Below the pieces are notes generated by a model. It had not been told where the DNA came from. It did no database searches and saw nothing but the letters and a program-made list of their open reading frames with translations. DNA of 64,000 nt from Jiella sonneratiae (GTDB lineage Bacteria > Pseudomonadota > Alphaproteobacteria > Rhizobiales > Rhizobiaceae): NCBI RefSeq assembly GCF_017353515.1, contig NZ_JAFMPY010000011.1, positions 1 through 64,000 on the forward strand, written 5' to 3'. The translations under genes were made by a program, and so were the position numbers. Positions 31,470 through 56,856 of this stretch are shown here, piece by piece; the stretch's first letter is position 1; each line of letters begins with the position of its first letter.

Positions 31470-31498
31470 GAACCAGAACGCCGAAAGCGCCCGCCTCA

Positions 31499-34400: not shown

Positions 34401-34831
34401 ATCTCGGTCAGATCCTCGTCGCCAAGAACGACGTCGTCATCCTGGATTTCGAGGGCGAGCCGGGCCGGTCGCTGGAGGAGCGCCGCGCCAAGACCTCGCC
34501 GCTGCGGGACGTCGCCGGCATGCTGCGCTCGTTCGACTACGCGGCTTTCGCCGCGAGGGACCGCTCCGGCCCCGTCGACGAGGCGACGGCCGAAAGGCTG
34601 CGCGAGATGGCGACGAGCTGGCGCGACGAGGTGAGCGAGCAGTTCCTCCTGCACTGGAGCGAGGCGTCGAAGATCGCCCTCGACGAGCCGATGCGCCAAC
34701 TGCTCGATCTCTTCGTCCTGCAGAAGGCCTTCTACGAGCTTCGTTACGAGGCCGCCATGCGGCCTGCATGGCTGTCGATTCCCCTGCGCGGCATCGTCGC
34801 CCTCCTCGAGAAACGACAGGTACTGAAATGA
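31499..34831 (+). CDS. treS: Trehalose synthase - maltokinase fusion
   Basis: 1110 residues. Residues ~20-560 are TreS, a GH13 enzyme that interconverts trehalose and maltose: [18 protein letters not shown], nucleophile Asp in [10 protein letters not shown] (about 218), Glu in [11 protein letters not shown] (about 260), FLRNHDELT (about 325). Residues ~580-1110 are a maltokinase (Pep2-like): the N-terminal cap with NQRWFAGK, then the kinase core with [12 protein letters not shown] (catalytic Asp, about 964) and the metal Asp in VILDFEGEP (about 982). Fusion lets trehalose be turned into maltose 1-phosphate for GlgE in one protein. Its stop overlaps the glgB ATG (ATGA). Confidence 0.96.
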
Positions 34832-37050
34832 ACATGATTCCCGCAAAACCTCCCGAAGGCGTCGAGCACAGGCCCGACGAGCGCCAGGCCTGGGAGATCG
34901 GTCGCGGCGTTCACGGCGACCCGTTCTCGATCCTCGGCCGCTTCCCCACAGACGGCGGCGCGATCGTCCGGGTCTACCGGCCCGGCGCGCATTCGGCCAA
35001 GGTGGTCGACGCCGGCGGCAAGGAACTCGCCTTGCTGGAATCCTTCGGTCCTGAAGGGTTCTTCACCGGCTACGTGCCCGGCCTCGACGGCGGCGCCGCC
35101 TATCGCATGCGCTACGGCCATGGCGGCGGCCAGGAGTGGGACGAGGAGGATCCCTACCGCTTCGGACCGATCCTTGGCGATCAGGACGTCTATCTTCTCG
35201 CCGAGGGCAACCACTACCGCTTCTACGAGAAGCTCGGGGCCCATCCCAAGGAGATGGACGGCACCTCCGGCGTCGCCTTCGCGGTCTGGGCGCCGGGCGC
35301 CCGCCGCGTCTCGGTGGTCGGCCACTTCAATTCCTGGGACGGCCGGCGCTCGGTCATGCGCAAGCGTCACGAATGCGGCGTCTGGGAGCTCTTCGTGCCG
35401 AATCTCGGCAGGGGCGAGGTCTACAAGTTCGAGGTGATCGGTCCGGACGGCAACGTGCAGCCGCTGAAGGCCGATCCCGTCGGCTTCCGGCAGGAACTCG
35501 CTCCCTCCACCGCCTCGCTCGTCGACGGCCTCGTCGAGCACGAGTGGCAGGACGCCGAGTTCCGCGCCCAGCCCGACGACTGGCAGAGCCGCGAGAAGCC
35601 GATCGCCATCTACGAGGTGCATCTCGGCTCCTGGCGCCGCGGCGACGGTAACGAGATGCTCGACTACGACGCGCTCGCCCGCGAGCTCGTCCCCTATGTC
35701 AAGGACATGGGCTTCACCCATGTGGAGTTCCTGCCGGTCTCCGAGCACCCGTTCTACGGCTCCTGGGGCTACCAGCCGATCGGCCTCTTCGCGCCGACCT
35801 CGCGCTGGGGATCGCCCGAGGCCTTCGCGCGGCTCGTCGACGCGCTGCATCAGGAGGGGATCGGCGTTCTCCTCGACTGGGTGCCCGGCCACTTCCCGAC
35901 CGACGTGCACGGCCTCGTGCGCTTCGACGGCACGGCGATCTACGAGCATCCGGATCCGCGGCGCGGCTTCCACAAGGACTGGAACACGCTGATCTACGAC
36001 TACGGCCGGCCGCAGGTGAAGAACTTCCTCGTCGCCAACGGCATGTACTGGCTCGACCGCTTCCACATCGACGGGCTGCGCGTCGATGCCGTCGCCTCGA
36101 TGCTGTATCTCGACTATTCCCGCTCGCACGGGGAATGGGAGCCGAACATCTACGGCGGCCGCGAGAACCTCGAGGCGATCACCTTCCTGAAGGACGCCAA
36201 CGAGCGGATCGGCGAGTACTACCCGAAGGCGACCACCCACGCCGAGGAATCGACGGCCTTTCCGGACGTGTCGAAGCCGACCTATGCCGGTGGCCTCGGC
36301 TTTCACTTCAAGTGGAACATGGGCTGGATGCACGACACCCTGCATTACATGCAGGAGGACCCGGTCAACCGGCGCTACCACCATCATCACATGACCTTCG
36401 GGATGGTCTACGCCTATTCGGAAAACTTCGTCCTGCCGCTCTCCCACGACGAGGTCGTCTACGGAAAGGGCTCGCTGCTCGGCAAGATGCCCGGCGACGA
36501 GTGGCAGAAGTTCGCCAATCTGAGGGCCTATTTCGGCTTCATGTGGACCCACCCCGGCAAGAAGCTGCTGTTCATGGGCGGCGAGTTCGGCCAGTGGGCG
36601 GAATGGAACCACGACCAGTCGCTCGACTGGCACCTGCTCGACAATCCGCGGCATGCCGGCGTCCAGAGGCTGGTGCGCGACCTCAACACCCTCTACCGCG
36701 AGGTGCCGGCGCTGCATCAGCTCGACTGCGACCCCGGCGGCTTCGAATGGGTCGACACCGCCAATGTCGACGAGAGCGTCATCGCCTTCCTGCGCAAGGA
36801 CCGCGACGGGCGGCAGGTGCTGATCGTCTCGAACTTCACGCCGATCCCCCGGCACGACTACCGGGTCGGCGTCTCGAAGGACGGCACCTGGACGGAACGG
36901 CTGAACACCGATGCGGAGATCTACGGCGGCTCGAATGTCGGCAACATGGGCGGCAAGGCGGCGGAAGAGCATTCCGTCCACGGACGGCCCTATTCGATCT
37001 CGCTGACGCTTCCGCCGCTCGCGACCGTCGTCATGGTCCACGAAGGCTGA
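34828..37050 (+). CDS. glgB: 1,4-alpha-glucan branching enzyme GlgB
   Basis: 740 residues with two N-terminal CBM48-like modules (about 20-120 and 125-225) and the GH13 barrel. Nucleophile Asp is in [12 protein letters not shown] (about 418), acid/base Glu in [10 protein letters not shown] (about 472), and the LPLSHDEVV and [15 protein letters not shown] motifs are intact. It adds alpha-1,6 branches to the glucan made by GlgE. The frame is open upstream for a long way in the shadow of treS; the ATG overlapping the treS stop is the real start. It converges on the GGDEF gene with a 12-base gap and no clear terminator. Confidence 0.96.
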
Positions 37051-37062
37051 GGCACCGTCCGC

Positions 37063-38259
37063 TCAGACGGGCAGACCCATCCCGCGCGGGAGGATCGGCG
37101 GGGTTTCGGCCTCGGCCTCTCGCAGGGCGGCGTCCTCGACGCGGTTGCGGCCGCTGGTCTTCGCCCGGTAGAGCGCCTCGTCCGCCCGGAAGAGCAGCGC
37201 CTCGAGCCTTTCAGGTTCCTGGGTCGTCGTCAGGCCGATGCTGACCGTCGCCGAGACCGGGCCGAGGTCGAGATCGAGCATCGCACGTTCGAAGTCGAGG
37301 CGGATCGCCTCCGCGAGGCGCCATGCGCCCGCCGGGTCGCCGTCGGCGATCACGACGGAAAATTCCTCGCCGCCCAACCGGGCGAAGATGTCGCCGGGCG
37401 CGAGGCGCGCCCGGACGATCGCGGCGAAGCGCCGCAGCACCTCGTCGCCGAAGCTGTGGCCGAAGATGTCGTTCACCTGCTTGAAGTTGTCGAGGTCGAG
37501 CATCATCAGTGCGGCCGTCCGATGCGGGCCGGCCCTGGCGAGCGCGCGCTCGGCCTTCAACTGGAAGGCACGGCGGTTGTCGGCACCCGTCAGAAAGTCG
37601 GTCTCGGCGAGCCTGATCAGCGAGGTCTCGCGCTTCTCCCGCAGCAGGGCGAGCATCAGATAGCCGACGAGGACGGACGTCCAGAGGCCTTCCATGATGA
37701 CGATCTGGAAGCCGACGCCGCGGGCTGCGTCGCTGACCGGACCGAGGGCGCCGACGGACCAGATCAAACGCCCGAGAAAGAAGGCGGCGCGCAGCGACAT
37801 GACGACCGCGAGAACGCGGCCGAGCCGGTCGATCCGCGGGGAAAAGGCCAGACGGGCGCTGATTGCCGAGATCGTCGCCGTCGCCGCCGACATGACGACC
37901 ACCCTCGTGTCGAAGTCGGCCGCCAGGGGGGAGGTGAACCAGAAGACCAGCCAGCAAAGGCTCGGGAACAGGACGAGGGCAAGGCTCGGTCGCCGGCCCG
38001 CAAAGGCGGCGATGCCGGCGCCGACCGCGCTGTAGGAGGCGAGGAAGGCGGCGTTCGACAGGCCGATCGAGAGAAAGTCGAAGGCCAAAATTCCCCGCAG
38101 CGGGAAGACCGATGCGCCGGCGGCGCTCGAAAGGAAGGCCGCGCACCACCAGCCGGCGGCGGGATCGCGAAACTTCCGCCACTCGGACAGCATCGCCGCG
38201 CCGGCGATGAGGCAGGTACCCATGGTGAGACAGAGAATGAGCGGGATGTTGCCGGTCAT
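37063..38259 (-). CDS. Membrane-bound diguanylate cyclase (GGEEF)
   Basis: 398 residues. The first ~215 residues hold six or seven hydrophobic segments and no recognised sensor domain. The GGDEF domain follows (TDFLTGADNRRAF, LDLDNFKQVNDIFGH, active site RLGGEEF near residue 296, ADEALYRAKTSGRNRV), which should synthesise cyclic di-GMP. The inhibitory I-site is missing: five residues before GGEEF there is APGD instead of RxxD, so no product feedback by that route. The ATG at 38259 precedes the first membrane helix but has no good ribosome site; an in-frame start further upstream is less likely as that sequence is not hydrophobic. Confidence 0.88.
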   Translation of the reverse strand: MTGNIPLILCLTMGTCLIAGAAMLSEWRKFRDPAAGWWCAAFLSSAAGASVFPLRGILAFDFLSIGLSNAAFLASYSAVGAGIAAFAGRRPSLALVLFPSLCWLVFWFTSPLAADFDTRVVVMSAATATISAISARLAFSPRIDRLGRVLAVVMSLRAAFFLGRLIWSVGALGPVSDAARGVGFQIVIMEGLWTSVLVGYLMLALLREKRETSLIRLAETDFLTGADNRRAFQLKAERALARAGPHRTAALMMLDLDNFKQVNDIFGHSFGDEVLRRFAAIVRARLAPGDIFARLGGEEFSVVIADGDPAGAWRLAEAIRLDFERAMLDLDLGPVSATVSIGLTTTQEPERLEALLFRADEALYRAKTSGRNRVEDAALREAEAETPPILPRGMGLPV

Positions 38260-38613
38260 CGGCGGCCCGCGAGGGGAGCAAATTGCGACTTCATCTGCCC
38301 ACGACCTCGCCCCGACCCTCGTTCCAGGCGTTCCCGCCACTCGCAGCACCGAACCTCGCGCCGCGGATGGCGCGCCGCGATGCGGCAGGCGCCTCCAGGA
38401 CGGGCATCTCCTCATCGCTTTCCGCCGTCCGGTGGCGAGGGTCTCGGGCGTCCCCGGTCCCGTCTTTCCCTGGACGGTCGGCGACGACAGTGCGGCCGAT
38501 ATCTGGAAAAAGCCTTAACGCATGACCGGAGAATTCCGGGCGGCGGGGCGGTCGGTCCGACCGGCGTTTCGCGCGGGCCGGAAACGCCGAGGTCCGGCGA
38601 CGAACCGTTCACA
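38260..38613. other. Gap between the GGDEF and transglutaminase genes
   Basis: 354 bases, both neighbours on the minus strand. It should contain the promoter of the GGDEF gene. I see no further gene, repeat or clear operator. Confidence 0.45.
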
Positions 38614-39492
38614 TCAGGCGACCGGCACCACGTCGACGAAGTGCCGGGTCTCCTGCGAGCCGGAGGTGACGAAGGTGCCGGCGATCGGCTGGGCGTCCTC
38701 GTAGTCGCGGCCAACGGCGACGACGATGTGGTCGTCGCCCGCGGCGATGCCGTTGGTGGGGTCGAAGCCGACCCAGCCGCAGTCCTCCCCGAGCCATGCC
38801 TCGATCCAGGCATGCATCGCGTCGGCGCCTTCGAGGCGCGGCTGGCCCTTCGGCGGGTCGGTGCGCAAAAAGCCGCTGACGTAGCGCGCCGCCATCCCCC
38901 GGGCCCTGAGGCCGGCGATCATCAGATGCGAGAAATCCTGGCAGACGCCGCGCCGTTCGGCGAAGATCTCGGCGACGCTGGTACCGACGACGGTCGAGCC
39001 CGGCCGATAGGCGAATTCCTCGCGGATCCTCCTCGCAAGCGCCATCACAGCCTCGCCAGCCGGGCGCTTCGCCGTCTCGAACGTCTCGGCGACCCAGTCG
39101 GAAAGCGGCGCGAAGCCGCTGATCCTCGGGCTCGGCCCGAGATGATGCAGCGGCGAGCCGGCGTCGAGCGAGCGGACGGCACAGGTCTCTGCGAGAATCC
39201 GCTCGATCTCCGGCGTCTCCGACAGCCGCGCCGCCGGCCGCTCGACGCTCACGTCGGCCCGCATATCGATGGCGAGTTCGGTCTGCGGGGCGAAGAAGGC
39301 GATCGCGTCGACGGGGTTGCCGAAGAAGTCGGTCTCGCCGCGCTGCTCCTCGGGGCGCGGAGCGATCGAAACGGCGACGTTCCGCACGAACTGGTCCGTC
39401 TCCCGGCGCGGGCGGATGCGCAGGAGATGGCGCGCATCGGTCACCGCGGCGGGATAGTCGTAGGTGATCCTCAGCCGGACGGCGTATCTCAT
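38614..39492 (-). CDS. Transglutaminase-like cysteine protease/amide protein
   Basis: 292 residues. The N-terminal beta domain (about 1-140, Bact_transglu_N type with LRITYDYPAAVTDARHLLRI) is followed by the transglutaminase core. The catalytic triad is Cys in RRGVCQDFSHLM (about 183), His in AMHAWIEAWL (about 225) and Asp in GFDPTNG (about 242). Such COG1305 proteins are constant partners of alpha-E/ATP-grasp genes and may cut or form amide bonds in a peptide product. The ATG overlaps the stop of the ATP-grasp gene (ATGA), so it is the second gene of that operon. No signal peptide is evident, suggesting cytoplasmic action. Confidence 0.9.
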   Translation of the reverse strand: MRYAVRLRITYDYPAAVTDARHLLRIRPRRETDQFVRNVAVSIAPRPEEQRGETDFFGNPVDAIAFFAPQTELAIDMRADVSVERPAARLSETPEIERILAETCAVRSLDAGSPLHHLGPSPRISGFAPLSDWVAETFETAKRPAGEAVMALARRIREEFAYRPGSTVVGTSVAEIFAERRGVCQDFSHLMIAGLRARGMAARYVSGFLRTDPPKGQPRLEGADAMHAWIEAWLGEDCGWVGFDPTNGIAAGDDHIVVAVGRDYEDAQPIAGTFVTSGSQETRHFVDVVPVA

Positions 39493-41891
39493 TCCGGACC
39501 TCCGAGCCATTCGGCCCTCGCCCGCGGGCTCGACAGGAGGTAGCGCTGGGTGAGGAGGTCGGAGATCAGCGAGAGATCGCCGACCACCCGGTCGAGAAAG
39601 GCGCTGTCGACCTCCACCGCGTCGGCCGTCTGCAGGCGGACGCGAAGCCGCGCCAGACGGCGGATCAGAAGATCCGGCGTCTCGCCGAGATGGACGCCCG
39701 GCAGCGCCGAGGTGACCTCGGCGAGCCTGTTGACCTGGAAGGCGAGGGAGCGCGGATTGAGCGGATCGAGCACCGCGAGGTCGACGACGGTCTCCTCGGA
39801 AAGATCCACCGAATAGCGGCGCCGGTAGGTGACGGAGGAGTCGGTGAAGGTCAGCACCGCCTCGAGCGCCCCGACGGGAGCTTCGCCTGCGATGAGCGAC
39901 GAGATCACCGCCGCCGTCGCCTGGCCGCGTTCCAGCGCCCGGCCGCACTGCATGAAACGCCAGCCGGTGAACTGGTACATGTTCTCGTGGGCGAGGCCGG
40001 CGAAGCCCGAGAGCTGGGTGAGGATCGCGCTGGTCAGCTCGACGGTCGCCTGGTCGTCCTCGGCGATGGCATCGAGCACCAGGGAGACGATCTCGTTCAG
40101 CGTGCGCCAGGCGTCGGGGGAGAAGCGCTCGCGGATGCGCGAGGCGGTGTCGGCGGCCTGCCGGGCGAGGGCGAGCAGGCCGCGCTTCGGCCGGCCGGGA
40201 TCGATGTCGACGCCGTAATCCTTGAGGATGACGGCGAGCCGGGCTTCCAGTTCGCCCGCCGCCCAGCCCTCGGTGGTCCTCGCGGCGTGGAGCCGCGTCA
40301 GCCGGGTGGCGCCCTCGCAACGCTCGGCGTAGCGACCCAGCCAGAACAGGTTGTCGGCGGCACGGGCCGGCAGCGCGCCGGGCAGCCGACGGGCGAAGCG
40401 GTCGCCGCGCGGCCCGATCAGGGAGATCGGCTTGATCGGCTGGTCGGAGGGAATCCAGACGTCGATCGAGCCGCCGCCGCGCTGCATCGAGATCACCCGC
40501 GCGTCGCGGGAATCGGCGACCCGGGCGAAGCCGCCCGGCATGACGTGCCAGCCTTCCTCGTCGCGCATCAGAAAGGCGCGCAGCGTCACCGGCCGCGGCT
40601 CGAGACCGCTTGCCCCGAAGACCGGCGTCGTCGAGAGGGCAGCGATCTCCTGTCCGACGAAGGCGACGCCCTCGCGCGCCGTCGCCGGCATCGCCTGCGG
40701 TTCGCTTCTGCGCTGGGCGGAGGTTTCGTCGCCCGCCGCCGCCATGGTCGCGGGAAAGGCCGGGCCGAGCTGCAGGCGTCCGGCATTTTCCGCGACGTAG
40801 CGGCGGACCGCCTCGTCGCCGCACCACCATGTGGCGATCGTCGGCAGTTTCAGCTCCTCGCCGATCAGCGCCTTCGCCAGCGCCTTCTGGAAGGCGAGCA
40901 GTGCCGGGGTCTCGAGAATGCCGGAGCCGAGGGCGTTGACGAGGCTGAGCGCGCCGGAGCGCACGGCCCGGCAGAGCCCCGGCGTGCCGATGCGCGAAGC
41001 GCCGAAAAGCTCCAGCGGATCGCAGAAATCGGCGTCGAGACGGCGCCACAGGACGCGGATCGGCTGGAAGCCGTCGACCGTGCGCACCTCGGCGCGGTCG
41101 CCATGGACGATGAGGTCGCCGCCTTCGAGGAGCAGCAGGCCGAGATAGCGGGCGAGATAGGCGTGCTCGTAATAGGTCTCGTTGTGCGGGCCGGAGGTGA
41201 GGAGGCCGATGCGGCTGCGCTCCGGGCCGCCGAGGGCGAACAGCATCTCGCGGAAGTTGCGGAAGAAGCCGGCGAGACGTTCGACGTTGAGGGCGCGCGA
41301 CAGGTCGGGGAACGCCTTTGAGGTCGCGACCCGGTTTTCCAGCGCGAAGCCGGCGCCGGAGGGTGCCTGGGTGCGGTCGCCAAGCACCCACCAGCGCCCG
41401 TCGGGGCCGCGGCCGAGATCGACGGCGATGAAGGACAGAAGCGGGATGCCGAGACGCGCCTGGTCGGCGACCGGGCGCAGGAATTCCGGATTCCGGCCGA
41501 CGAGGACGCCCGGCAGGACGCCCTCCGCCACCACGCGGCGCTCGCCGTAGAGGTCGGTCAGCAGCGCTTCGAGAAACCTCGCACGCTGAACGAGACCCGC
41601 TGAAAGCGCCGTCCATTCCGCCCGGTCGATGATCAGCGCCGGATGGCCGAGCGGCCAGTCGTGGCTCTGCTCGCTCTCCTCGCCATAGACCTGGTGGAAC
41701 ACGCCGGCTTCGGAAAGATACTGCCGTGCCGAGGCGAAGCGGCGTTCGACCTCGCCGCCCGGCATCGCCGCCAGCCGCCGCATCAGCGGCGTCCAATGCG
41801 GCCGGACCGCACCGCCGGGCGCGATCATCTCGTCGCGCGACTTGGCGGCGAGGCTGGCATAGCGACGGAGTTGGACGGTATCGGGAGGCAC
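39489..41891 (-). CDS. Circularly permuted ATP-grasp ligase fused to alpha-E domain
   Basis: 800 residues. Residues ~20-480 are the circularly permuted ATP-grasp domain (DUF404/DUF407, COG2308): RARFLEALLTDLYGERRVV, FIAVDLGRGPDGRWWVLGDRTQAPSG (partial), LLTSGPHNETYYEHAYLARYLG (partial), RTVDGFQPIRVLWRRLD. Residues ~505-795 are the helical alpha-E domain (DUF403, COG2307): ADNLFWLGRYAERCEGATRL and EDDQATVELTSAILTQLSGF. In most genomes these are two genes; here they are one chain. The ATP-grasp half should form an amide bond between a carboxylate and an amine, perhaps in a small peptide. The start is taken as GTG 41891; no ATG precedes the conserved DEM motif closely, so the exact start is uncertain. 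Confidence 0.9.
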   Translation of the reverse strand: MPPDTVQLRRYASLAAKSRDEMIAPGGAVRPHWTPLMRRLAAMPGGEVERRFASARQYLSEAGVFHQVYGEESEQSHDWPLGHPALIIDRAEWTALSAGLVQRARFLEALLTDLYGERRVVAEGVLPGVLVGRNPEFLRPVADQARLGIPLLSFIAVDLGRGPDGRWWVLGDRTQAPSGAGFALENRVATSKAFPDLSRALNVERLAGFFRNFREMLFALGGPERSRIGLLTSGPHNETYYEHAYLARYLGLLLLEGGDLIVHGDRAEVRTVDGFQPIRVLWRRLDADFCDPLELFGASRIGTPGLCRAVRSGALSLVNALGSGILETPALLAFQKALAKALIGEELKLPTIATWWCGDEAVRRYVAENAGRLQLGPAFPATMAAAGDETSAQRRSEPQAMPATAREGVAFVGQEIAALSTTPVFGASGLEPRPVTLRAFLMRDEEGWHVMPGGFARVADSRDARVISMQRGGGSIDVWIPSDQPIKPISLIGPRGDRFARRLPGALPARAADNLFWLGRYAERCEGATRLTRLHAARTTEGWAAGELEARLAVILKDYGVDIDPGRPKRGLLALARQAADTASRIRERFSPDAWRTLNEIVSLVLDAIAEDDQATVELTSAILTQLSGFAGLAHENMYQFTGWRFMQCGRALERGQATAAVISSLIAGEAPVGALEAVLTFTDSSVTYRRRYSVDLSEETVVDLAVLDPLNPRSLAFQVNRLAEVTSALPGVHLGETPDLLIRRLARLRVRLQTADAVEVDSAFLDRVVGDLSLISDLLTQRYLLSSPRARAEWLGGPE

Positions 41892-42133
41892 GTTCGTCCG
41901 CGCGTTGCGGCATCGCTCTGGTCGGAAGTCGCAGGCGATTTCCGATCGGCAAAATGCCTGGATCCAAGGTGCCGGAGCGTTCTTCGGGCGTTTGAGAGAA
42001 CGCCCGAAGTATCAGCCCGGCCGGGGCAAGCTACAGCATGGCCGGCACGATGGGGAGACGTCGGCGTCGTCGCTTCGCGGTTCGGCGCGGGCGCGCGGCC
42101 TCGGATTATCGCGGCGGGGCCTTCGCTCCTGCG

Positions 42134-42901
42134 TCAAGCCTGATGCCGTCGACCGGTCACCGTCGGCCAGCGGGAGACATCGATCCCCGTCAGGGCCGAA
42201 AACTCGCGTACATCGGCGAGATACCGATCGCGCAGAAACCGGAAATCCTCCGCCGACGGTGCTCGATAGTCCTCGAGATCGCCACGGCGCATCAAATGCG
42301 CAGCCGTACCGTTTGGCGGGGCGTCGAGACCGAGGAAGTCCATGATCTCCCGCATCCGGAAATCATCGTCCTGCCATACGTCTTCCGCCTGCAGGAAGAG
42401 CACCTGCTCGCGCGGGAAAAGGGAAAGTATCCGTTCGGCCTGGCCATGATAGTATCCCCGGCCGACATAGCTGTAGATCCGGGCCTCCCGGGACAACGCC
42501 ATGCCGATACGCGAGGTCTCGCTCCGGATCGCCTCGGAAAAGCCCTGCCTCTCCAGTCCCCTCGCATGCTCCATGCACCAGTGCGACCATGCCCGCTCGA
42601 TCGGGTCACGGAAGACCACGATGATCTTCGCGCCGGGATTATACGTGGCGATCCGCTCCATGGCCGGCGGCCAGAAGCAGTAGATCGGCGTCGAATCGAT
42701 CCACATCTTCGCCGTCGAATCGAAAAACGCGTCGATCGGACGATAATCGGGATCGTCCCAGTCGACCGTCAGCTCGTCGTCGAAGAAATGAAGTTCCTTG
42801 CGTGTCGGCGCGGCAATCCGCGGATGATCGGTCATCCGACTGTGGAGAGATGACGTCCCGCCCTTCTGGACGCCGCAGATGAAAACGTCGATCTTCTTCA
42901 A
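42134..42901 (-). CDS. PAPS-dependent sulfotransferase
   Basis: 255 residues, cytosolic Sulfotransfer fold. The 5'-phosphosulfate loop is CGVQKGGTSSL (about residues 9-19) and the 3'-phosphate site VVFRDPIERAWSHW (about 94-107). It transfers sulfate from PAPS to a hydroxyl of an unknown acceptor; close relatives in this fold act on polysaccharides or glycolipids. It stands alone between the ATP-grasp operon and the DUF2126 gene on the same strand, with ~240 and ~160 base gaps. It uses rarer codons (for example ATA) and reads less GC-biased than its neighbours, a hint of later acquisition. No signal peptide or membrane segment. Confidence 0.85.
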   Translation of the reverse strand: MKKIDVFICGVQKGGTSSLHSRMTDHPRIAAPTRKELHFFDDELTVDWDDPDYRPIDAFFDSTAKMWIDSTPIYCFWPPAMERIATYNPGAKIIVVFRDPIERAWSHWCMEHARGLERQGFSEAIRSETSRIGMALSREARIYSYVGRGYYHGQAERILSLFPREQVLFLQAEDVWQDDDFRMREIMDFLGLDAPPNGTAAHLMRRGDLEDYRAPSAEDFRFLRDRYLADVREFSALTGIDVSRWPTVTGRRHQA

Positions 42902-43062
42902 GCCGCAACCCGACCACTGAGATGGCGGCTCGAATCCACTGTCTGCCCTGCCGACGCGATCGCCGCGCGTCGGCGAAGCCTCCTAAAACCGCACGCCGTT
43001 GCGTCAAATTCAACAGTTTCCGCAACCGAATGCAATGCGACAATTAATCTTCGGCAACGATC

Positions 43063-46000
43063 TCATACGCCCAGCCGGCCCGCGGGACGCCGCAGATCGA
43101 GCGTCATCGGGAAGCTCGGATCGGGGAGTTCGCGGACCGGCTGGTAGCCGCCGGGGGTGTGGCCGATGGCTTCGAAGCGCGCGAGGCGGCGCGCCTCCGC
43201 CTCGTAGGAATTCACCGGGAAGGTCTCGTAGCTGCGCCCGCCGGGATGCGCGACGTGATAGACGCAGCCGCCGAGCGAGCGCTTCGACCAGCGATCGTAG
43301 ATGTCGAAGGTCAGCGGCGCGTGGACGGGGATCGTCGGATGCAGGCCCGAGGCCGGCTGCCAGGCCTTGAAGCGGACGCCCGCGACCGCCTCCCTGCCGC
43401 GCCCCGTTGCCGCCAGCGGCACTTCCCGGCCGTTGCAGGTGACGACGTGCCGGGCCGGCTCGAAGTCCGACAGCTTCACCTGCAGCCGCTCGACGGAGGA
43501 ATCGACGAAGCGCACCGTGCCGCCGATCGCCCCGGTCTCGCCCATCACGTGCCAGGGTTCCAGCGCCTGGCGCAGCTCCAGCGTCACGCCCTCGCGCTCG
43601 ATCCTGCCGCAGAAGGGGAAGCGGAACTCGGCCTGCGCCTCGAACCATTCGGGCCGGATCGGATAGCCGGAGCGGCCGAGGTCGTCGAGGACGCCGAGGA
43701 AATCCGCCCAGACGAATTCCGGCAGCATGAAGCGGTCGGCGAGCGCCGTTCCCCAGCGCACGAAGCTGCCGTCCTCCGGCTCCTTCCAGAACTTCATGAT
43801 CAGCGCCCGGATCAAAAGCTGCTGGGCGAGGCTCATCCGGGCGTCCGGCGGCATCTCGAAGCCGCGGAACTCGACGAGGCCGAGCCGGCCGGTCGGCCCG
43901 TCGGGCGAATAGAGCTTGTCGATGCAGATCTCGGCGCGGTGGGTGTTGCCGGTGACGTCGACGAGGAGGTTGCGGAACAGCCGGTCGACCAGCCAGGGCG
44001 GGGTCGAGAAGCCGTCCTGCGTCACCTGCGCCATGGCGATCTCCAGCTCGTAGAGCTGGTCGTGGCGGCCCTCGTCGATGCGCGGCGCCTGGCTGGTCGG
44101 ACCGATGAAGAGGCCCGAGAAGAGATAGGAGAGCGAGGGATGGCGCTGCCAGTAGAGGACGAGCGACTTCAGGAGGTCCGGGCGACGCAGGAAGGGCGAA
44201 TCGAGCGGCGTCGCGCCGCCGACCACGACATGGTTGCCGCCGCCGGTGCCGGCATGCTTGCCGTCGATCATGAACTTGTCGGTGCCGAGGCGGGACTGGC
44301 GGGCGTCCTCGTAGACGCCGGTGGTGATCGCCTTGGCCTCCTCCCATGACGCGGCGGGATGGACGTTGACCTCGATGACGCCGGGGTCGGGCGCGACGCG
44401 GATGACGCCGAGCCGCGGGTCCGGCGGCGGCGCGTAGCCCTCGATCTGCACCGGCAGGCCCTCGGCGGCGGCAATTTCCTCGATCGCCCCGAGAAGGTCG
44501 AGATAGGCCTCGGCGAATTCCAGCGGCGGCATGAAGACGCAGAGCTTGCCGTCGCGCGGCTCGACCGAGAGCGCGGTGCGCACGGAGCCCGAGATCTCGG
44601 TCGAGAGCGGGGCGAAGCTGCCGAAGCCCGGCATCAGGCCGCCGGCCGCGCCGCCGCCCGCTGGCAGCGGCGGCAGCGGCGGCATCCACTGCCGCATGCC
44701 TTCCCGGCCCATCTTCTGGCTCATGCCGCCTTCGTCAGCCGCCTGGGCGGAGCCGCCTGCCGCGCCGAGATGCTGCTGCATCTCGATCCGCCCCCATTGC
44801 TGGCGGCTCTGCGGCGGCAGCGGCGGGAAGGGCTGCGTCGGATCCTCGGGATGGATGAACGGATAGTGCGAGGGGCCGAGATGCGGCAAAGCGGAAAGCG
44901 GCAGGCGGTAGCCCATGGCGGAATCGCCTGGAACGAGGAAGAGCTGCCGGCGCCGGGTCGACCAGCGCTCGGAGAACCACCTGACGCCGCGGGCCCGGCC
45001 CTGCCAGGCCTGGATCGGCAGGACGTGGCCGGTCGGCTTCGGCAGGCCGCGCTCGAACACCTTGGCGAGCCGCGCGCGCTCTTCGCGGTCTTCGAGCTTG
45101 GAATTCGTCGGTTCGACGTTTTCCGGCAGTTGCGCCTCGCGCAGCAGCCAGTAGGCGGTGTCCTCGTAGGCCGGCAGGACGTAGTCCGTCGCCACGCCCA
45201 GCGCGTCGGCGACGGCGCGCGTGAAGCGCTCGGACTCCGCTGCGCCGACCGCAAGTCCGGTCTTTTCGCGGGCGATGGTCTCGGCGTTCTGCCAGATCGG
45301 CACGCCGTCCTTGCGCCAGTAGAGGGAGAAGGTCCAGCGCGGCAGCGTCTCGCCCGGATACCACTTGCCCTGGCCGTAATGCAGGAAGCCGCCGGGCGCG
45401 AAGCGGTCGCGCAGGCGCCGGATGAGGTCGTCGGCAAGGCCCCGCTTGGTCGGGCCGGTGGCGTCGGAATTCCACTCCGCCGCCTCGAAGTCGTCGATCG
45501 AGACGAAGGTCGGCTCGCCGCCCATGGTCAGGCGCACGTCGCTGGCCTTCAGTTCGGCGTCGACCCTTTCGCCGAGCGCGTCGAGTTCCTGCCAGCTTTC
45601 CTCGGAGAAGGGGTGGGAGACGCGCGGTCGCTCCTCCACCCGCGTCACCGACATGGAGAAGTCGAACTCGACCTCGGCATAGTCGACGGCGCCGGTGATC
45701 GGGGCGGCGGAGCGGTAGTGCGGGGTCGCCGCGAGCGGCACGTGGCTCTCGCCGGTGAGAAGGCCCGAGGTGGGGTCGAGGCCGATCCAGCCGGCGCCGG
45801 GAAGATAGACCTCGGCCCAGGCGTGCAGGTCTGTGAAGTCGTGGGAGGTGCCGGCCGGCCCGTCGATGGCCACCTTGTCGGGCTTCAGCTGGATCAGATA
45901 GCCGGAGACGAAGCGCGCGGCGAAACCGAGGTGCCGCATCACGTTGACGAGGAGCCAGGAAGAATCGCGGCAGGAGCCCGACCCCTTGCCGAGCGTCTCT

Positions 46001-46509
46001 TCGGGCGACTGCACGCCCGGCTCCATGCGCACCAGATAGTCGATGCGCTTTTCCACCGCCTGGTTCAGCCCGACGAGGAAGTTGACGGTGTTCTTCTCCG
46101 AGCGGTCGAGCTCTTTGAGAAATGCCGCGAGCAGTCGGCCCGCCGGCTCCGGGACCAGATAGGCGGCAAGGTCGCTCTTCAGGATCTCGTCGTACTGGAA
46201 CGGCCATTCCTCCGCCGCTTCCTCCACGAAGAAGTCGAACGGGTTGTAGACGGTCATGTCGGCGAGGAGGTCGACCTCGATGCGGAACTCGGTGGTCTTT
46301 TCCGGAAAGACGAAGCGGGCGAGATAGTTGCCGAAGGGGTCCTGCTGCCAGTTGACGAAGTGGTCCTCGGGCGTCACCCGCAGCGAATAGGACGGCACTT
46401 TCGTCCGCGAATGCGGCGCCGGGCGGAGCCGGATGGTCTGGGGTGCGAGGGAAACGGGGCGATCGTATCGGTAGTGGGTGACGTGGTTGAGGGCGGCAAG
46501 GATCGACAT
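43063..46509 (-). CDS. Transglutaminase - DUF2126 protein
   Basis: 1148 residues. Residues ~1-275 are a transglutaminase domain with N-terminal beta region: Cys in [13 protein letters not shown] (about 179), His in [10 protein letters not shown] (about 229), Asp in GLDPTSG (about 246). Residues ~290-1110 are DUF2126: [70 protein letters not shown] and [12 protein letters not shown] Pro/Gly/Met-rich stretch around 590-640 is a linker. By memory DUF2126 has been proposed to be related to glutamine synthetase-like amidoligases. The gene belongs with the ATP-grasp/alpha-E cluster in many genomes; it is divergent from the zinc peptidase gene. Confidence 0.9.
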
Positions 46510-46749
46510 GGTCGCTTTCGTTCATCCCGTTTCGTTGGCGGGAAGCTTAATCGCATCTCGCAATGCGGCAAGCGCCTCGACACGCGACCTCGACACGCGA
46601 CATGGGCGAAGCGGTCGTAGAGGCAGGGAAAATTCCCGCGGCCACCGGTCCGGCCCGGAACCCTTCGCCCCCGTAAGCATTGATGCGCGCAACCGATATC
46701 CGGCGATATACGGCGATTTCCGGCGCGGCGCCGCGCCCTGAGGACCTCG

Positions 46750-47820
46750 ATGAAACTCTTTTCCTGTCCCGCCTGCGCGCAGGTCGTTTTCTTCGAGAAC
46801 GTCGTCTGCGAGCGCTGCAACCACGCCCTCGGCTACGAGCCGGATTCCAACCGGATGCTGGCGCTCGACCCGGCGGACGGCATCTTCGTCGCCGCCGGCA
46901 CCCATAGCGACGGCTCGAAGTGGAAATACTGCGCGAACTATGCCTTCGGCGTCTGCAACTGGCTGGTTCCGGGCGAAGGCCCGGAGGTCTACTGCAAGGC
47001 CTGCCGCCACAACGTGACGGTGCCCGACACGTCCGACCCGACGAACGTCGCCCGCTGGCAGAAGATGGAGATCGCCAAGCGGCGGATGTTCTACACGCTG
47101 CTGCGCCTACGCCTGCCGCTGGCGACGCGCGACGAGGCGGGGGAGGGTCTCGGCTTCGACTTTCTCGCCGAAACGCCCGGCGAGCAACATGTGATGACCG
47201 GCCACGACCTCGGCCTGATCACCATCGCCCTCGCCGAGGCCGACGACGCCGAGCGGGAGAAGCGTCGGACGTCGATGGGCGAGCCCTATCGCACGCTGCT
47301 CGGCCACTTTCGCCACGAGGTCGGCCACTGGTACTGGGACCGGCTGGTGCGCGACGGCAATCCGGGCGCGCTGCAGGCATGCCGGGCGATCTTCGGCGAC
47401 GACACGGTCGACTACGGCGAGGCGCTGCAGCAGCATTACATGAACGGCCCGAAGCCGAACTGGCAGACGGAATACGTCTCCTCCTATGCCGGCTCGCACG
47501 CCTGGGAGGACTTCGCCGAGACCTGGGCGCATTACCTCCACATCGTCGACAGCCTCGAGACCGGCCACTGGTGGGGTGTCTCGGTGGATCCGCGCGTGCG
47601 CGATTCCGGCCTGCTCACGACGACGATCGATTTCGACGTCTATCGCGACGAGGTGACGATCGACGAGATCGCCGATGCCTGGCTCGCGCTGTCGGCGGCG
47701 CTGAACTCGTTCAACCGCTCGATGGGCCATCACGACCTCTATCCCTTCGTCATTTCCGAGACGGTGAAGCAGAAGCTCGGCTTCATCCACGATCTGGTGC
47801 GGGGCAGGGCGGGCCGTTAG
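46750..47820 (+). CDS. Zinc-ribbon metallopeptidase (Peptidase_Mx / COG4307 type)
   Basis: 356 residues. The N-terminus has two zinc-ribbon-like knuckle sets: C6-x2-C9 with C20-x2-C23, then YCANYAF...VC with VYCKACRHN (about 60-85). The peptidase part has the zincin motif HEVGH (about 190-194) and the downstream WEDFAETWAHYLHIVD (about 251-266), whose acidic residue is the likely third ligand. No signal peptide is seen, so it acts in the cytoplasm. It is transcribed divergently from the DUF2126 gene over a 240-base gap and is a known neighbour of alpha-E/ATP-grasp genes, where it may process the ligated peptide. Substrate unknown. Confidence 0.87.
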   Translation: MKLFSCPACAQVVFFENVVCERCNHALGYEPDSNRMLALDPADGIFVAAGTHSDGSKWKYCANYAFGVCNWLVPGEGPEVYCKACRHNVTVPDTSDPTNVARWQKMEIAKRRMFYTLLRLRLPLATRDEAGEGLGFDFLAETPGEQHVMTGHDLGLITIALAEADDAEREKRRTSMGEPYRTLLGHFRHEVGHWYWDRLVRDGNPGALQACRAIFGDDTVDYGEALQQHYMNGPKPNWQTEYVSSYAGSHAWEDFAETWAHYLHIVDSLETGHWWGVSVDPRVRDSGLLTTTIDFDVYRDEVTIDEIADAWLALSAALNSFNRSMGHHDLYPFVISETVKQKLGFIHDLVRGRAGR

Positions 47821-48114
47821 TCGCCTGCCTGGACGGTCGATGCGTTGCCGACCCCTGGCGGCGTGCGCATGCCGCGGGATCGTCCGACGTAGTCTCCGGC
47901 CGAAAACCGTCGGAACGCTCGCGGTGCGTTGGCCCGACAGCCGAATACGGAAATTTCCTCGACAGCAAGGGCTGGAAGCCTGCGCGCCCGCTTTAATTAA
48001 GATGCGGTGCGGCAAGCGGTCCGCTCGACCGCGAGCGTCTGTGGCCTCGGTTCGGGACCTCGTAGGCAAGACCGCCCGCACGGAAATCAGCCTTCAGGGA
48101 CGGGGACTGAGGAC

Positions 48115-50001
48115 ATGGCACAAACTGCCGACCGCTTCTTATTCGAGACGCATTGGGGCCCGCGCCTTCTTGCAGGCCGGACCGAATTCCGACTCTGGGC
48201 GCCGTCGGCGCCATCGATCGAACTCGCGATGGGGGACGGGGCCGGCAAGCCGGCCGGTTTCCTGCCGATGGAAAAGGACGCCCGAGGCTGGTGGCGGATC
48301 GAGACCGACCGCGTCGCGGTCGGGCAGGGATACGGCTTTCGGCTCGACAGCGGCCTCGTCGTTCCCGATCCCGCGGCGCGGGCGCAATGCGGCGACGTCC
48401 ACGGCCTGTCGAAGCTGGTCGATCCGAAAGCCTATGCCTGGAAGACGGCAGGCTGGAACGGCCGCCCCTGGGAGGAGGCGGTGTTCTACGAACTCCACAC
48501 CGGCACCTTCTCGCCCGAGGGGACCTTCGACGGCGTCGCCGAGCGGCTCGACTATCTGAAGGAGACCGGCGTCACCGCCGTCGAGCTTTTGCCCGTCGCG
48601 GAGTTCGCCGGCCGCCGGGGCTGGGGCTATGACGGGGTGCTGCTCTACTGCCCGCACGAGGTCTATGGCGGCGGCGACGGGCTGAAGCGGCTCGTCGATG
48701 CCGCGCACGAGCGCGGCCTGATGGTGTTCCTCGACGTCGTCTACAATCACTTCGGGCCGGACGGGAACTACATCGGCTCCTACGCGCCGGAGTTCTTCCA
48801 TCAGGAGATCCACACGCCCTGGGGGGCGGCGATCGCCTATGACGAGAAGCCGGTGCGCGACTTCATGATCGACAACGCCCTGTTCTGGCTGGAGGAGTTC
48901 CGCATCGACGGGCTCAGGCTCGACGCGATCGATTCCATCGAGGACACCACCGACGTGCCGCTGGTGCGCGAACTCGCCGCGACGGTCCGCGCCGCCTTCC
49001 CGGACCGCCACGTCCACATCACCACCGAGGACGACCGCAACATCACCTGGCACGTCGAGCGCGAGAACGGCCGGGCCGCCCTCGTCTCCGGCGAGTGGAA
49101 CGACGACTTCCACCATACCGCCCACGTCATCGCCACCCACGAGGAAGAGGGCTACTACGCCGACTATTCCCGCAAGTCGGTGGCGCAGATGGCCAAGGCG
49201 CTCGCCACCGGCTTCGTCTTCCAGGGCGAGCACTCCAAGCATCGCGGCCGCGACGTCGGCAGACCCTCCGGGCACCTGCCGCCGACCGCCTTCGTGAACT
49301 TCCTGCAGAACCACGACCAGATCGGCAACCGCGCCTTCGGCGACCGGCTGACCGACCTCGCCTCGCGCCGCGTGGTGGAATGCCTGCAGGCGATCCTCCT
49401 GCTCTCGCCGCAGATCCCGCTCATGTTCATGGGCGAGGAATACGGCAACACCGATCCGTTCTGCTTCTTCACCGACTTCGACGGCGAACTCGCCGACGCG
49501 GTGCGCGAGGGGCGGCGCGCCGAATTCAAGAAGTTCGCGGCCTTCCACGATGCCGACGCCCGCAAGCTGATCCCCGATCCGAACGCCGAGACGACCTTCA
49601 AGGCGTCGAAGCTCGACTGGTCGCTGCTCGACCGCCCGACCTACCGGCGGCGTTGGGCGATGGTGAAGACGCTGCTCGAAAAGCGCCAGCAGCGCGTCGT
49701 GCCGCTGATCGCCGGCGAACTGGCGGGCGGCTGCGGCGAATATCACGTCTCCGACGACACGCTGGCCTTCGTCGTCGCCTGGCATCTGAAGAACAATGCC
49801 GTGCTGCATCTCTTCGCCAATCTCGACGACGAGCCCTGGGCGCTGCCCTCCGACGTCGTCAAGAGCGATCTGACCTGCGGCGACCTCCTCCACTCCCATC
49901 CGAAGGACGCTGCCCCGATGCTTGAAACCGGCTGCCTGCCCGGGCCCTCCGTGGTCTTCCGCATCGAAGGACAGAAGCTGATCTCCGGGACCGCACGATG
50001 A
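48115..50001 (+). CDS. treZ: Malto-oligosyltrehalose trehalohydrolase TreZ
   Basis: 628 residues. It releases trehalose from the maltooligosyl-trehalose made by TreY. An N-terminal carbohydrate-binding module (RTEFRLWAPSAPSIELAM) precedes the GH13 barrel: VFYELHTGTFSPEGTFDG, nucleophile Asp in GLRLDAIDSI (about 268), Glu in ITTEDDRN (about 303), QNHDQIGNRAFGDRL (about 398). The frame is open upstream, but the ATG at 48115 precedes the conserved start and follows GAGGA. Its stop overlaps the malQ ATG (ATGA). It opens the second alpha-glucan operon of the window. Confidence 0.96.
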   Translation: MAQTADRFLFETHWGPRLLAGRTEFRLWAPSAPSIELAMGDGAGKPAGFLPMEKDARGWWRIETDRVAVGQGYGFRLDSGLVVPDPAARAQCGDVHGLSKLVDPKAYAWKTAGWNGRPWEEAVFYELHTGTFSPEGTFDGVAERLDYLKETGVTAVELLPVAEFAGRRGWGYDGVLLYCPHEVYGGGDGLKRLVDAAHERGLMVFLDVVYNHFGPDGNYIGSYAPEFFHQEIHTPWGAAIAYDEKPVRDFMIDNALFWLEEFRIDGLRLDAIDSIEDTTDVPLVRELAATVRAAFPDRHVHITTEDDRNITWHVERENGRAALVSGEWNDDFHHTAHVIATHEEEGYYADYSRKSVAQMAKALATGFVFQGEHSKHRGRDVGRPSGHLPPTAFVNFLQNHDQIGNRAFGDRLTDLASRRVVECLQAILLLSPQIPLMFMGEEYGNTDPFCFFTDFDGELADAVREGRRAEFKKFAAFHDADARKLIPDPNAETTFKASKLDWSLLDRPTYRRRWAMVKTLLEKRQQRVVPLIAGELAGGCGEYHVSDDTLAFVVAWHLKNNAVLHLFANLDDEPWALPSDVVKSDLTCGDLLHSHPKDAAPMLETGCLPGPSVVFRIEGQKLISGTAR

Positions 50002-51857
50002 CGTCACGCCTCGACCTGCTTGCCGCGAGCCACGGCATCCAGCTCGCCTACGTCTCCGAACTCGGCGAAGAGAAGGTCATCGACGATACCGCCAAGCGCG
50101 CGCTTCTCGGCGCCCTTGGCGTCGATCCAGAGACCGGCGCGCCCGGCGACTTCCACGACAGGGTCGAGGCGCCGCGGCGCGCCTGTCCGCTGCCGGAGGC
50201 GATCGCCGACCACCGGCACTGGGGCGTCGCCTGCCAGCTCTATGCGCTCCGCTCCAGCCGCAGCCTCGGCATCGGCGATTTCGAGGATCTCGCCCGGCTT
50301 TCCGTCATCGCCGCCGGAGAGGGGGCCGCCTTCGTCGGCGTCAATCCGCTGCACGCGCTCTTCCTCGCCGAGCCGGCCCGCTACAGCCCCTATTCGCCCT
50401 CGACACGGCGCTTCCTCAACCCGTTCTATCTCGCCGTCGACCACATGGAAGGCGGCGCTGCGGCGATCGAGGCCGTCAGGGCGCAGGCGCCGGAACTCTT
50501 CGACGGGCTCGAGGGCGACCTCGTCGACTATCCGGCCGTCGGCCGGCTGAAACGGGCGCTGTTTTCCCGGCTGTTCGAGGCCCGCCGCGGCGAGATCGAG
50601 GACGAGCAGGCCTTCCAGCGTTTCGTCGAGGCCGGCGGGGAGGCGCTGCAGGGTTTCGCCCTGTTCGAGGCGATCTCGGAAGCCGAGGTCGAACGGGGCG
50701 GCCATGCCGGCTGGCATCACTGGCCGGAGGCAATGCGCGACCGCCATTCGCCCGAGGTCGCCCGCTTCGCCGAGGAACGGCGCGAGCGCGTGCTCTTCCA
50801 TCTCTGGCTGCAGTTCGAGGCCGAGGAGCAGCTCGCCAGCGCCCAGGCCCGGGCAAGGGGCGCCGGCATGGCAATCGGCCTCTATCTCGATCTCGCAGTC
50901 GGCGTCACGCCCGATGGGGCCGAGACCTGGGCCGATCCGGCGCTCACCGTCAACGGCGCGCGGGTCGGCTCGCCCCCCGACATGTTCAACAGCCAGGGCC
51001 AGGACTGGGGCCTTGCGCCGCTGTCGCCGAAGGCCCTCGCCGAACGCGACCACAAGCCGCTGTTCGAGGCCTTCACGGCACTGACCCGCAATGCCGGCGC
51101 GGTGCGGATCGACCACGCCATGGGGCTTGCCCGGCTGTGGTGGATCCCGAACGAGGCGCGCTCGGCCGGCGGCGGCTACGTGCGCTATCATCTCGGCGCG
51201 ATGATCGACGCCGTGGCGAAGGCCGCCGCCGACAACCGCTGCCTCGTCATCGGCGAGGATCTCGGCACCGTGCCGCCCGGCTTTCGCGAGGTGATGGCGG
51301 CGGCGAACGTCTTCTCCTACCGCGTGCTTTACTTCGAGCGGCATGCGGACGGCAGCTTCGTCGACCCCGGCGCCTATCCGCGGCTCTCCCTCGCCTGCAT
51401 CTCGACCCATGACCTCGCGACGCTGTCGGGCTGGTGGACGGCCGGCGACATCGCGCTGCGTTTCGAAGCGGGCACCCAGGACGAGGCGGCGACGGCGCGC
51501 GACAGGCAGTCCCGGTCGGGCGAGAAGCGCATGCTGCTCGAAGCGCTGCACCGGTCGGATCTCCTGCCGGAAAGTCTCGAGGCCGTGCGCCGCGGCGCCG
51601 CGGCGATGCCGGAGGAACTGCCGGACGAACTCGCCGTGGCGGTCCACCGTCACCTCGCCCGCAGCGCCGCGCTGGTCTTCGCCGTCCAGCTCGACGACAT
51701 GGTGGGTGCCGTCCGGCAGGCGAACCTTCCCGGCACCACCGACCAATATCCGAACTGGCGCATCAGGACGCCGGTCCCCCTCGAGGACCTGTCGAGCGAC
51801 AGGCGCTTCCTCGAAATGGCGGCCGCCATGCGCGAAGAAAGGCCCACCCGTTCATGA
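49998..51857 (+). CDS. malQ: 4-alpha-glucanotransferase MalQ
   Basis: 619 residues of GH77. Signatures WGVACQLYALRSSRSLGIGDF, SPYSPSTRRFLNPFYL, the nucleophile Asp in RIDHAMGL (about 370), the acid/base Glu in IGEDLGTVP (about 418) and STHDLATLSGWW (about 470). It transfers maltooligosyl units between glucan chains. It sits between treZ and treY with ATGA overlaps on both sides, so it is made in fixed ratio with them and probably lengthens short products into chains TreY can use. A debranching enzyme (treX/glgX) that often fills this place is absent. Confidence 0.95.
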   Translation: MTSRLDLLAASHGIQLAYVSELGEEKVIDDTAKRALLGALGVDPETGAPGDFHDRVEAPRRACPLPEAIADHRHWGVACQLYALRSSRSLGIGDFEDLARLSVIAAGEGAAFVGVNPLHALFLAEPARYSPYSPSTRRFLNPFYLAVDHMEGGAAAIEAVRAQAPELFDGLEGDLVDYPAVGRLKRALFSRLFEARRGEIEDEQAFQRFVEAGGEALQGFALFEAISEAEVERGGHAGWHHWPEAMRDRHSPEVARFAEERRERVLFHLWLQFEAEEQLASAQARARGAGMAIGLYLDLAVGVTPDGAETWADPALTVNGARVGSPPDMFNSQGQDWGLAPLSPKALAERDHKPLFEAFTALTRNAGAVRIDHAMGLARLWWIPNEARSAGGGYVRYHLGAMIDAVAKAAADNRCLVIGEDLGTVPPGFREVMAAANVFSYRVLYFERHADGSFVDPGAYPRLSLACISTHDLATLSGWWTAGDIALRFEAGTQDEAATARDRQSRSGEKRMLLEALHRSDLLPESLEAVRRGAAAMPEELPDELAVAVHRHLARSAALVFAVQLDDMVGAVRQANLPGTTDQYPNWRIRTPVPLEDLSSDRRFLEMAAAMREERPTRS

Positions 51858-56544: not shown

Positions 56545-56856
56545 TCCGAGATCCGCTCGATCGAAGCGGGGCTCGTATCAAGCCTGCGCGGCGAATGAGC
56601 GTCTTTGTTTTCGGCATCACGACGTGATCTGCCGGAAACCGTCTGACGCCGGCGCCGCGTCTTCGGGCCGCTTGCCTTCGCCGGAACTTTGGATTTTCCG
56701 GGTCCGCGTTCAGGCGGCGGTAAGCAGATCGAAAGCATCGCCGTGGCAGGCCGGCCGCCCTTAACGCTCCGTTAGGCATAAGCGGCTATGGCTCGATCCG
56801 ACGGACTGCGTCCGCCTTCCGGGGAGGGTGTGCGCGTGCCGAGCAACGGGGCCGCC
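56545..56856 (+). promoter_or_regulatory. Upstream region of the DUF1217 gene with CtrA-like box
   Basis: 312 bases without a gene. At 56761-56775 the sequence TTAA-CGCTCCG-TTAG closely matches the CtrA box TTAA-N7-TTAA (last base differs). It is 82 bases before the start codon of the DUF1217 gene. CtrA control is common for flagellar and cell-cycle genes in alphaproteobacteria; here it is inferred from the motif alone. Confidence 0.5.

Follow-up and report, generated by a model that had tools for sequence, protein, structure and literature searches.

A conserved transglutaminase-DUF2126 cassette in Jiella sonneratiae whose fused ATP-grasp is probably a pseudo-ligase

We analyzed a 64,000-nucleotide stretch of the Jiella sonneratiae genome (contig NZ_JAFMPY010000011.1, positions 1 to 64,000, forward strand; hereafter the window), concentrating on the genes collected in Table 1. 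An initial annotation had listed here an ATP-grasp/alpha-E fusion, two transglutaminases, DUF2126, a zinc peptidase and a sulfotransferase, and had proposed that they form a peptide- or amide-bond system enclosed by alpha-glucan operons. The named families are all present with strong Pfam scores, but a single protein holds both the second transglutaminase and DUF2126, such that the list amounts to a total of five genes. ATP-grasp and alpha-E do share a single 800-residue chain, AGAE, with Pfam matches to CP_ATPgrasp_2 (2.4e-121; ATP-grasp at residues 86-459) and Alpha-E (3e-53; residues 507-785). DUF2126 scores 1312.8 bits (E=0) on the same chain as the second transglutaminase domain, and the Peptidase_Mx match (3.5e-103) is accompanied by a zinc ribbon.

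Table 1. Genes of the cassette region and its context, in window coordinates
Feature	Position	Strand	Remarks
TG1, transglutaminase-like cysteine amidase/peptidase	38614..39492	-	292 aa; PF08379, PF01841
AGAE, circularly permuted ATP-grasp + alpha-E	39489..41891	-	800 aa, GTG start; PF14403, PF04174, PF04168
Sulfotransferase	42134..42901	-	255 aa; Pfam
TG-DUF2126, transglutaminase-like domain + DUF2126	43063..46509	-	1148 aa; Pfam
Zinc ribbon + Peptidase_Mx (HExxH...E)	46750..47820	+	356 aa; Pfam; divergent from TG-DUF2126
GGDEF protein, between TG1 and glgB	37063..38415	-	PF00990; context
glgE, treS-maltokinase, glgB	29427..37050	+	context; inner starts approximate
treZ, malQ, treY	48007..54559	+	context; TreZ TIGR02402 680 bits, TreY TIGR02401 915 bits

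The long open reading frame at 38614-41967 resolves into two genes, AGAE and TG1, which lie in different frames and are joined by an ATGA overlap that suggests coupled translation. The enclosure by alpha-glucan genes is likewise real, with glgE, treS-maltokinase and glgB on one side and treZ, malQ and treY on the other. A search with Rfam returned 0 matches, and NCBIfam models, applied to seven proteins, assigned no family to 6 of the 7 and GGDEF models to the seventh. Downstream of the glucan genes, positions 56788-59358 encode an 856-residue protein with six DUF1217 stretches.

Using tblastn, we mapped neighboring genes at 172 loci from other genomes, comprising 9 loci of congeners, 10 of other relatives, 33 of an even draw of the class (class-sample), 80 of named genomes chosen by design as the closest relatives, and 27 non-alphaproteobacterial and 13 further alphaproteobacterial loci of a phylum draw, the 27 being a hand-picked, genus-spread part of 52 non-alphaproteobacterial genomes with DUF2126. 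The arrangement of the window, with transglutaminase and DUF2126 on one chain adjoining AGAE and a second transglutaminase, recurs widely: TG-DUF2126, AGAE and TG1 fell within one fetched stretch at 69/80 named, 24/33 class-sample and 24/27 non-alphaproteobacterial loci, indicating that these families travel together beyond chance, as had been claimed. The same held for 10/10 other relatives, 12/13 further alphaproteobacterial loci and 5/9 congeners. No complete AGAE was found in the remaining 4 congener stretches, the gene being in pieces in one (L025) and placed elsewhere in three (about 65 kb away in genome G005, on separate contigs in G007 and G009), and DUF2126 and a fused alpha-E are kept in 10/10 genomes of the genus. 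At L025, which belongs to an 84% complete genome (G001), each of the matches to TG-DUF2126, AGAE and malQ falls into at least 2 pieces, a pattern that may represent frameshifts in the genes or in the assembly.

Fused alpha-E was detected in 20/20 DUF2126-positive and 0/21 DUF2126-negative genomes of the relatives draw and, as judged by score, in 28/34 DUF2126-positive and 9/206 other genomes of the class draw, the fused type being missing from six class-sample genomes with DUF2126. Since fused alpha-E thus tracks DUF2126 in both draws, the ATP-grasp/alpha-E fusion is the usual form of the cassette and nothing special to the window. A zinc peptidase lies near DUF2126 at 2/33 class-sample and 9/80 named loci; the core of the cassette is TG-DUF2126, AGAE and TG1, and the peptidase is a facultative partner. 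These genes are common, with alpha-E found in 83/240 and DUF2126 in 34/240 alphaproteobacterial genomes, and DUF2126 in 84/299 genomes of the phylum draw. The closest named relatives at the locus are Aurantimonas (80% identity in TG-DUF2126) and Mangrovicella. A record named Methylopila sp. Yamaguchi (L089) carries a 75% identical TG-DUF2126, with the zinc peptidase and without glucan genes; that it is closer than most Rhizobiaceae may reflect transfer or a misnamed record.

The sulfotransferase, which had been counted as part of the set, has a counterpart at 0/172 loci, and we therefore judge it to be a local insertion outside the system. Its third-position GC content (GC3) is 0.762, as compared with 0.874-0.929 in 11 neighboring genes, and the two observations together rule it out as a cassette component. 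By sequence, its PDB relatives include heparan sulfate 3-O-sulfotransferases. The gap between TG-DUF2126 and AGAE varies within the genus (L025, L027, L028, L030 and L032), its contents in congeners including ion channel genes (4 loci), a PRC-barrel gene, a periplasmic binding protein and MdoG, a protein of periplasmic glucan synthesis. The GGDEF gene that separates TG1 from glgB in the window has equivalents at that position in several congeners, as well as in L086 and L090.

To compare the fused ATP-grasp domain with stand-alone circularly permuted (CP) ATP-grasps, we scored six catalytic-motif residues (E158, N160, K366, G372, G373 and G375, in the numbering of the genome's own stand-alone copy). 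Main-set rows were excluded if the tblastn match spanned fewer than 380 query positions or contained a stop, and added-set rows if it spanned fewer than 250, with L213 left unscored; L172, L175 and L182 were counted as fused, since their coordinates fall inside fused genes and the tree groups them with the fused copies. The six-residue set was present in 41/42 stand-alone ATP-grasps (28/28 and 13/14, with the remaining row truncated at a contig end) and complete in 0/150 aligned fused rows. Among the latter, the Glu is kept in 2/150 and the Asn in 0/150, with Arg instead of Asn in 142/150, such that G/A/S-D-R replaces E-D-N, and neither the Lys nor the Gly-rich loop remains. The window copy has lost all of these motifs (E-x-N, Lys and Gly-rich loop), as have five fused copies from genomes without DUF2126 (L209, L210, L211, L214 and L217), which have a transglutaminase alongside. 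In the tree, the fused copies form one group separate from 28 stand-alone ones (support 0.897).

From the motif pattern, we take the lost residues to be metal-ligand and ATP-binding. E330-x-N332 and K533, presumably magnesium and ATP ligands, are common to E. coli Gss and YgiC, and a profile alignment of the stand-alone CP ATP-grasp against YgiC and Gss gave nothing significant. The structural model of AGAE (pLDDT 85.8) keeps the ATP-grasp fold, with its best PDB match, 3n6x, being a solved relative that retains both motifs. Judging from its sequence, AGAE is probably a pseudo-ligase, and we read it as keeping a predicted binding role. The earlier view of the ATP-grasp as the ligase is not borne out by these counts; as the catalytic residues of this domain appear to be lost, another protein must act as ligase. 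In a search of literature other than Iyer et al. 2009, we found no published statement of the motif loss.

With AGAE a probable pseudo-ligase, DUF2126 is left as the plausible ligase of the cassette. It is the most conserved long part, and residues E332, E713, N715, H760, R858, E860, R882 and E885, picked by eye as candidates for an active site, are present in 152/152 rows. The DUF2126 model is mediocre (pLDDT 70.0), and its best PDB matches were YbdK (1r8g_B; probability 1.00, E 1.3e-3, TM 0.16/0.34) and glutamine synthetases; none of them reached E<=0.001, and the TM-scores were low. YbdK is a carboxylate-amine ligase; the model agrees with the Pfam label of putative amidoligase and falls short of proof. 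A literature search under DUF2126 and Rv2567-type locus tags gave no match. The Cys, His and Asp of the TG-DUF2126 transglutaminase domain are each kept in 152/152 rows, and in TG1 Cys184 and His227 are present in 154/154 rows and Asp244 in 153/154. The zinc peptidase keeps His189, His193 and Glu257 in 28/28 rows and Glu190 in 27/28; a search for its PDB relatives found none.

Elsewhere in the same genome, on contig C38 (L024:7507-10894), an ATP-grasp, an alpha-E and an Anbu gene lie side by side in an Anbu-type set, with no transglutaminase among the 10 open reading frames scanned. A proteasome-family search of the genome gave only contigs C49 and C38, and thus no Anbu gene on the window contig. 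The stand-alone ATP-grasp on C38 is motif-intact, whereas the window copy is not, and this coexistence of a dead fused and an intact stand-alone copy is how a division of labor would look within one genome. Stand-alone alpha-E was found in 32/34 DUF2126-positive and 46/206 other alphaproteobacterial genomes (p=4e-16, uncorrected for relatedness), the two DUF2126-positive genomes without it being 84% and 74% complete. Anbu was found in 24/34 and 39/206, respectively, leaving 10 DUF2126-positive genomes without an Anbu match. Moreover, TG-DUF2126 has members of the Anbu-type set as neighbors at 20/27 non-alphaproteobacterial and 8/33 class-sample loci, with Anbu itself at 7 of these 20 and 3 of these 8. 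The cassette and the Anbu-type operon go together and, since 10/34 genomes are without Anbu and Anbu occurs at 7/20 of the linked loci, what links them is less Anbu than the stand-alone ATP-grasp and alpha-E.

A four-gene Burkholderia cenocepacia group (I35_5080-5083) includes a large transglutaminase protein, which we presume is probably TG-DUF2126. These genes, annotated as DUF404/407, DUF403, a transglutaminase and the large transglutaminase protein, were 6.0- to 9.4-fold lower in an ntrC mutant (PMC5491218). In two Pseudomonas putida studies, PP_2686-2688 rose 11- to 15-fold under nitrogen limitation in the first strain column, in which PP_2685 (Anbu) was barely up, with little rise in two of three strains (PMC7801951), and PP_2685, PP_2688 and treY were up on nitrate (PMC8050072). 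In a Yersinia bercovieri study, the stand-alone ATP-grasp released phosphate from ATP, no stable interaction was seen among the proteins of the operon, and no peptidase activity was seen for Anbu (PMC6376114). A review table lists as antinematode a metagenomic clone carrying genes for an ATP-grasp, an alpha-E, a transglutaminase and a protease (PMC7764037), and the regulatory region of COG2308 is a candidate for nodule competitiveness in a Sinorhizobium association study (PMC8407117).

We considered and rejected a sigma-54 promoter for the cassette of the window, as no sigma-54-like site was found upstream of TG-DUF2126. Among alphaproteobacterial upstream regions such sites numbered 10/137 (expected 4.4, with one of 20 resampled sets at 10 at most), and an enrichment is not clear. 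Of 19 non-alphaproteobacterial upstream regions, 5 reached score 9 (expected 0.8, with no more than 4 in any of 20 resampled sets) and none reached 10, which is only suggestive, the control having resampled bases by first-order transitions and not as exact shuffles.

Together, these results suggest that the gene set probably makes and breaks an amide compound. The amide or peptide system of the initial annotation survives in its conserved cassette, and has shed the ATP-grasp as ligase, the membership of the sulfotransferase and the link to glgE. From gene content, conservation, motif loss and retention, co-occurrence and neighborhood we infer a direction of descent, activities, a partnership and a physiology, and chart the following model. 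DUF2126 would be an ATP-dependent amide ligase, while the transglutaminase domain of TG-DUF2126 and TG1 would, as thiol amidases or transferases, target bonds of this type, with TG-DUF2126 as a bifunctional synthetase/amidase comparable to E. coli glutathionylspermidine synthetase/amidase. AGAE would descend from ATP-grasp and alpha-E genes that were duplicated from an Anbu-type operon and fused; having then lost its ATP-grasp chemistry, it would now serve for binding or as a scaffold. ATP-grasp activity would reside in the stand-alone protein of the Anbu-type set (encoded on contig C38 in this genome), and, when nitrogen is limiting, both sets would jointly synthesize and recycle an amide-linked product, whether a metabolite, a tag or a nitrogen store. 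We give the full proposal, comprising a DUF2126 ligase, a pseudo-ligase AGAE, an Anbu-type partner set and an amide product under nitrogen limitation, about an even chance (roughly 0.5). Only tentatively do we extend it further: the DUF2126 cassette may complete an Anbu-linked conjugation system as its second half, so that an intact stand-alone ATP-grasp/alpha-E pair is joined by a universally inactivated ATP-grasp/alpha-E fusion that presents substrate to a glutamine-synthetase-like ligase with its own thiol amidase; under nitrogen starvation, this system might write and erase an amide tag or a nitrogen store, and in Rhizobiaceae it might twice have come to lie next to glucan-storage genes responding to the same condition.

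The cassette could instead be a salvage system, in which the transglutaminases and the zinc peptidase cut peptides or isopeptides for nitrogen and DUF2126 merely reconjugates the products. Its three hydrolase-type domains with conserved residues, and the nitrogen-limitation control of relatives in the published studies, would fit such a role; however, the most conserved long part is DUF2126, with its ligase-like predicted fold, and the peptidase is missing near most loci, leaving salvage a doubtful alternative. Unlikely, too, is that AGAE remains an active ligase via different residues, which would give the cassette two working ligases. The residues in question (Glu and Asn as metal ligands, the Lys, the Gly-rich loop) are lost jointly, with the full set broken in 150/150 copies, and no substitute metal site was identified, although the domain keeps its fold (with 3n6x as best match), 30/45 columns near-invariant in stand-alone rows are kept at >=90% in the fused domain and the replacement residues are themselves conserved (most prominently the Arg), such that the domain is under selection.

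Glucan genes lie within the stretch at 8/9 congener, 3/10 other-relative, 21/80 named and 2/13 further alphaproteobacterial loci, and at 0/33 class-sample and 0/27 non-alphaproteobacterial loci. The alpha-glucan setting is therefore nearly confined to the window's family: the neighborhood of the core is non-random across relatives, but that of the alpha-glucan flanks, including treYZ, holds in the congeners and in Aurantimonas and Mangrovicella and not in the wider samples. Four of the 21 named loci (Aurantimonas, Mangrovicella) have the treZ/malQ/treY arrangement, 16 (Rhizobium, Sinorhizobium and kin) have glgP-glgB downstream in the same direction, and L130 (Henriciella) shows just one treS-like match. 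In Rhizobium-type loci glgP-glgB lies directly downstream (L103:18479-23223, L106:15421-20093, L203 and L205); a VWA/Tad protein was noted between cassette and glgP-glgB in L103. The differing genes and orientation of the two arrangements may reflect two events, or inheritance with rearrangement. GlgE occurs in 4/34 DUF2126-positive and 22/206 other genomes (p=0.77), ruling out a general GlgE link and with it the suggestion that glgE co-occurrence would be informative. That the cassette acts on alpha-glucan, adding an amide or peptide to glycogen or a trehalose-derived polymer, would explain the glucan-operon setting, its two arrangements (glgB/treS/treZ/treY and glgP-glgB) in 8/9 congeners, 4 Aurantimonas/Mangrovicella and 16 further named loci, and the co-induction of treY with the ATP-grasp operon in P. 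putida (PMC8050072), but is improbable given the empty wider samples, the absent genome-level GlgE link and synteny by descent in related genomes. As related genomes inherit synteny, the glucan-neighbor counts are not independent.

Several known systems resemble the cassette in part. Amidoligase systems of DUF2126, transglutaminase, ATP-grasp and alpha-E, with a proposed role in peptide or amide synthesis, were reportedly described by Iyer et al. 2009, as relayed by citing papers. As relayed there, their families match those of the window and lie in a conserved neighborhood; the fused ATP-grasp here differs from that second-hand account in being without the full catalytic motif set in 150/150 copies. 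The Anbu operon (PMC6376114, PMC5666114) has homologous ATP-grasp, alpha-E and transglutaminase genes, whereas the window locus is without Anbu and has a fused degenerate ATP-grasp and TG-DUF2126. Outside alphaproteobacteria, the operon is often linked to DUF2126 loci, and in J. sonneratiae an Anbu-type set exists in the same genome. E. coli Gss, by functional analogy, also places a thiol amidase and an ATP-dependent ligase on one chain, as in TG-DUF2126, yet its ligase is an ATP-grasp, with Gss and YgiC carrying the E-x-N and Lys motif, while the ligase fold of TG-DUF2126 is predicted to be glutamine-synthetase-like, and the amidase families differ. The Rlo/Rim systems (PMC12239564) share the theme of ligase, transglutaminase and peptidase, but their ATP-grasp is of a type unrelated to that of the window and their transglutaminase is in the membrane; the inactive part is the transglutaminase in Rlo/Rim and, by prediction, the ATP-grasp in the window cassette.

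For genes as common as these, the distinction matters in practice. If the fused ATP-grasp is dead, a mutant or an assay of AGAE as the 'ligase' would mislead, and the apt targets would be TG-DUF2126 and the stand-alone ATP-grasp, with nitrogen limitation as the apt condition. The Anbu question, in turn, gains a testable partner set.
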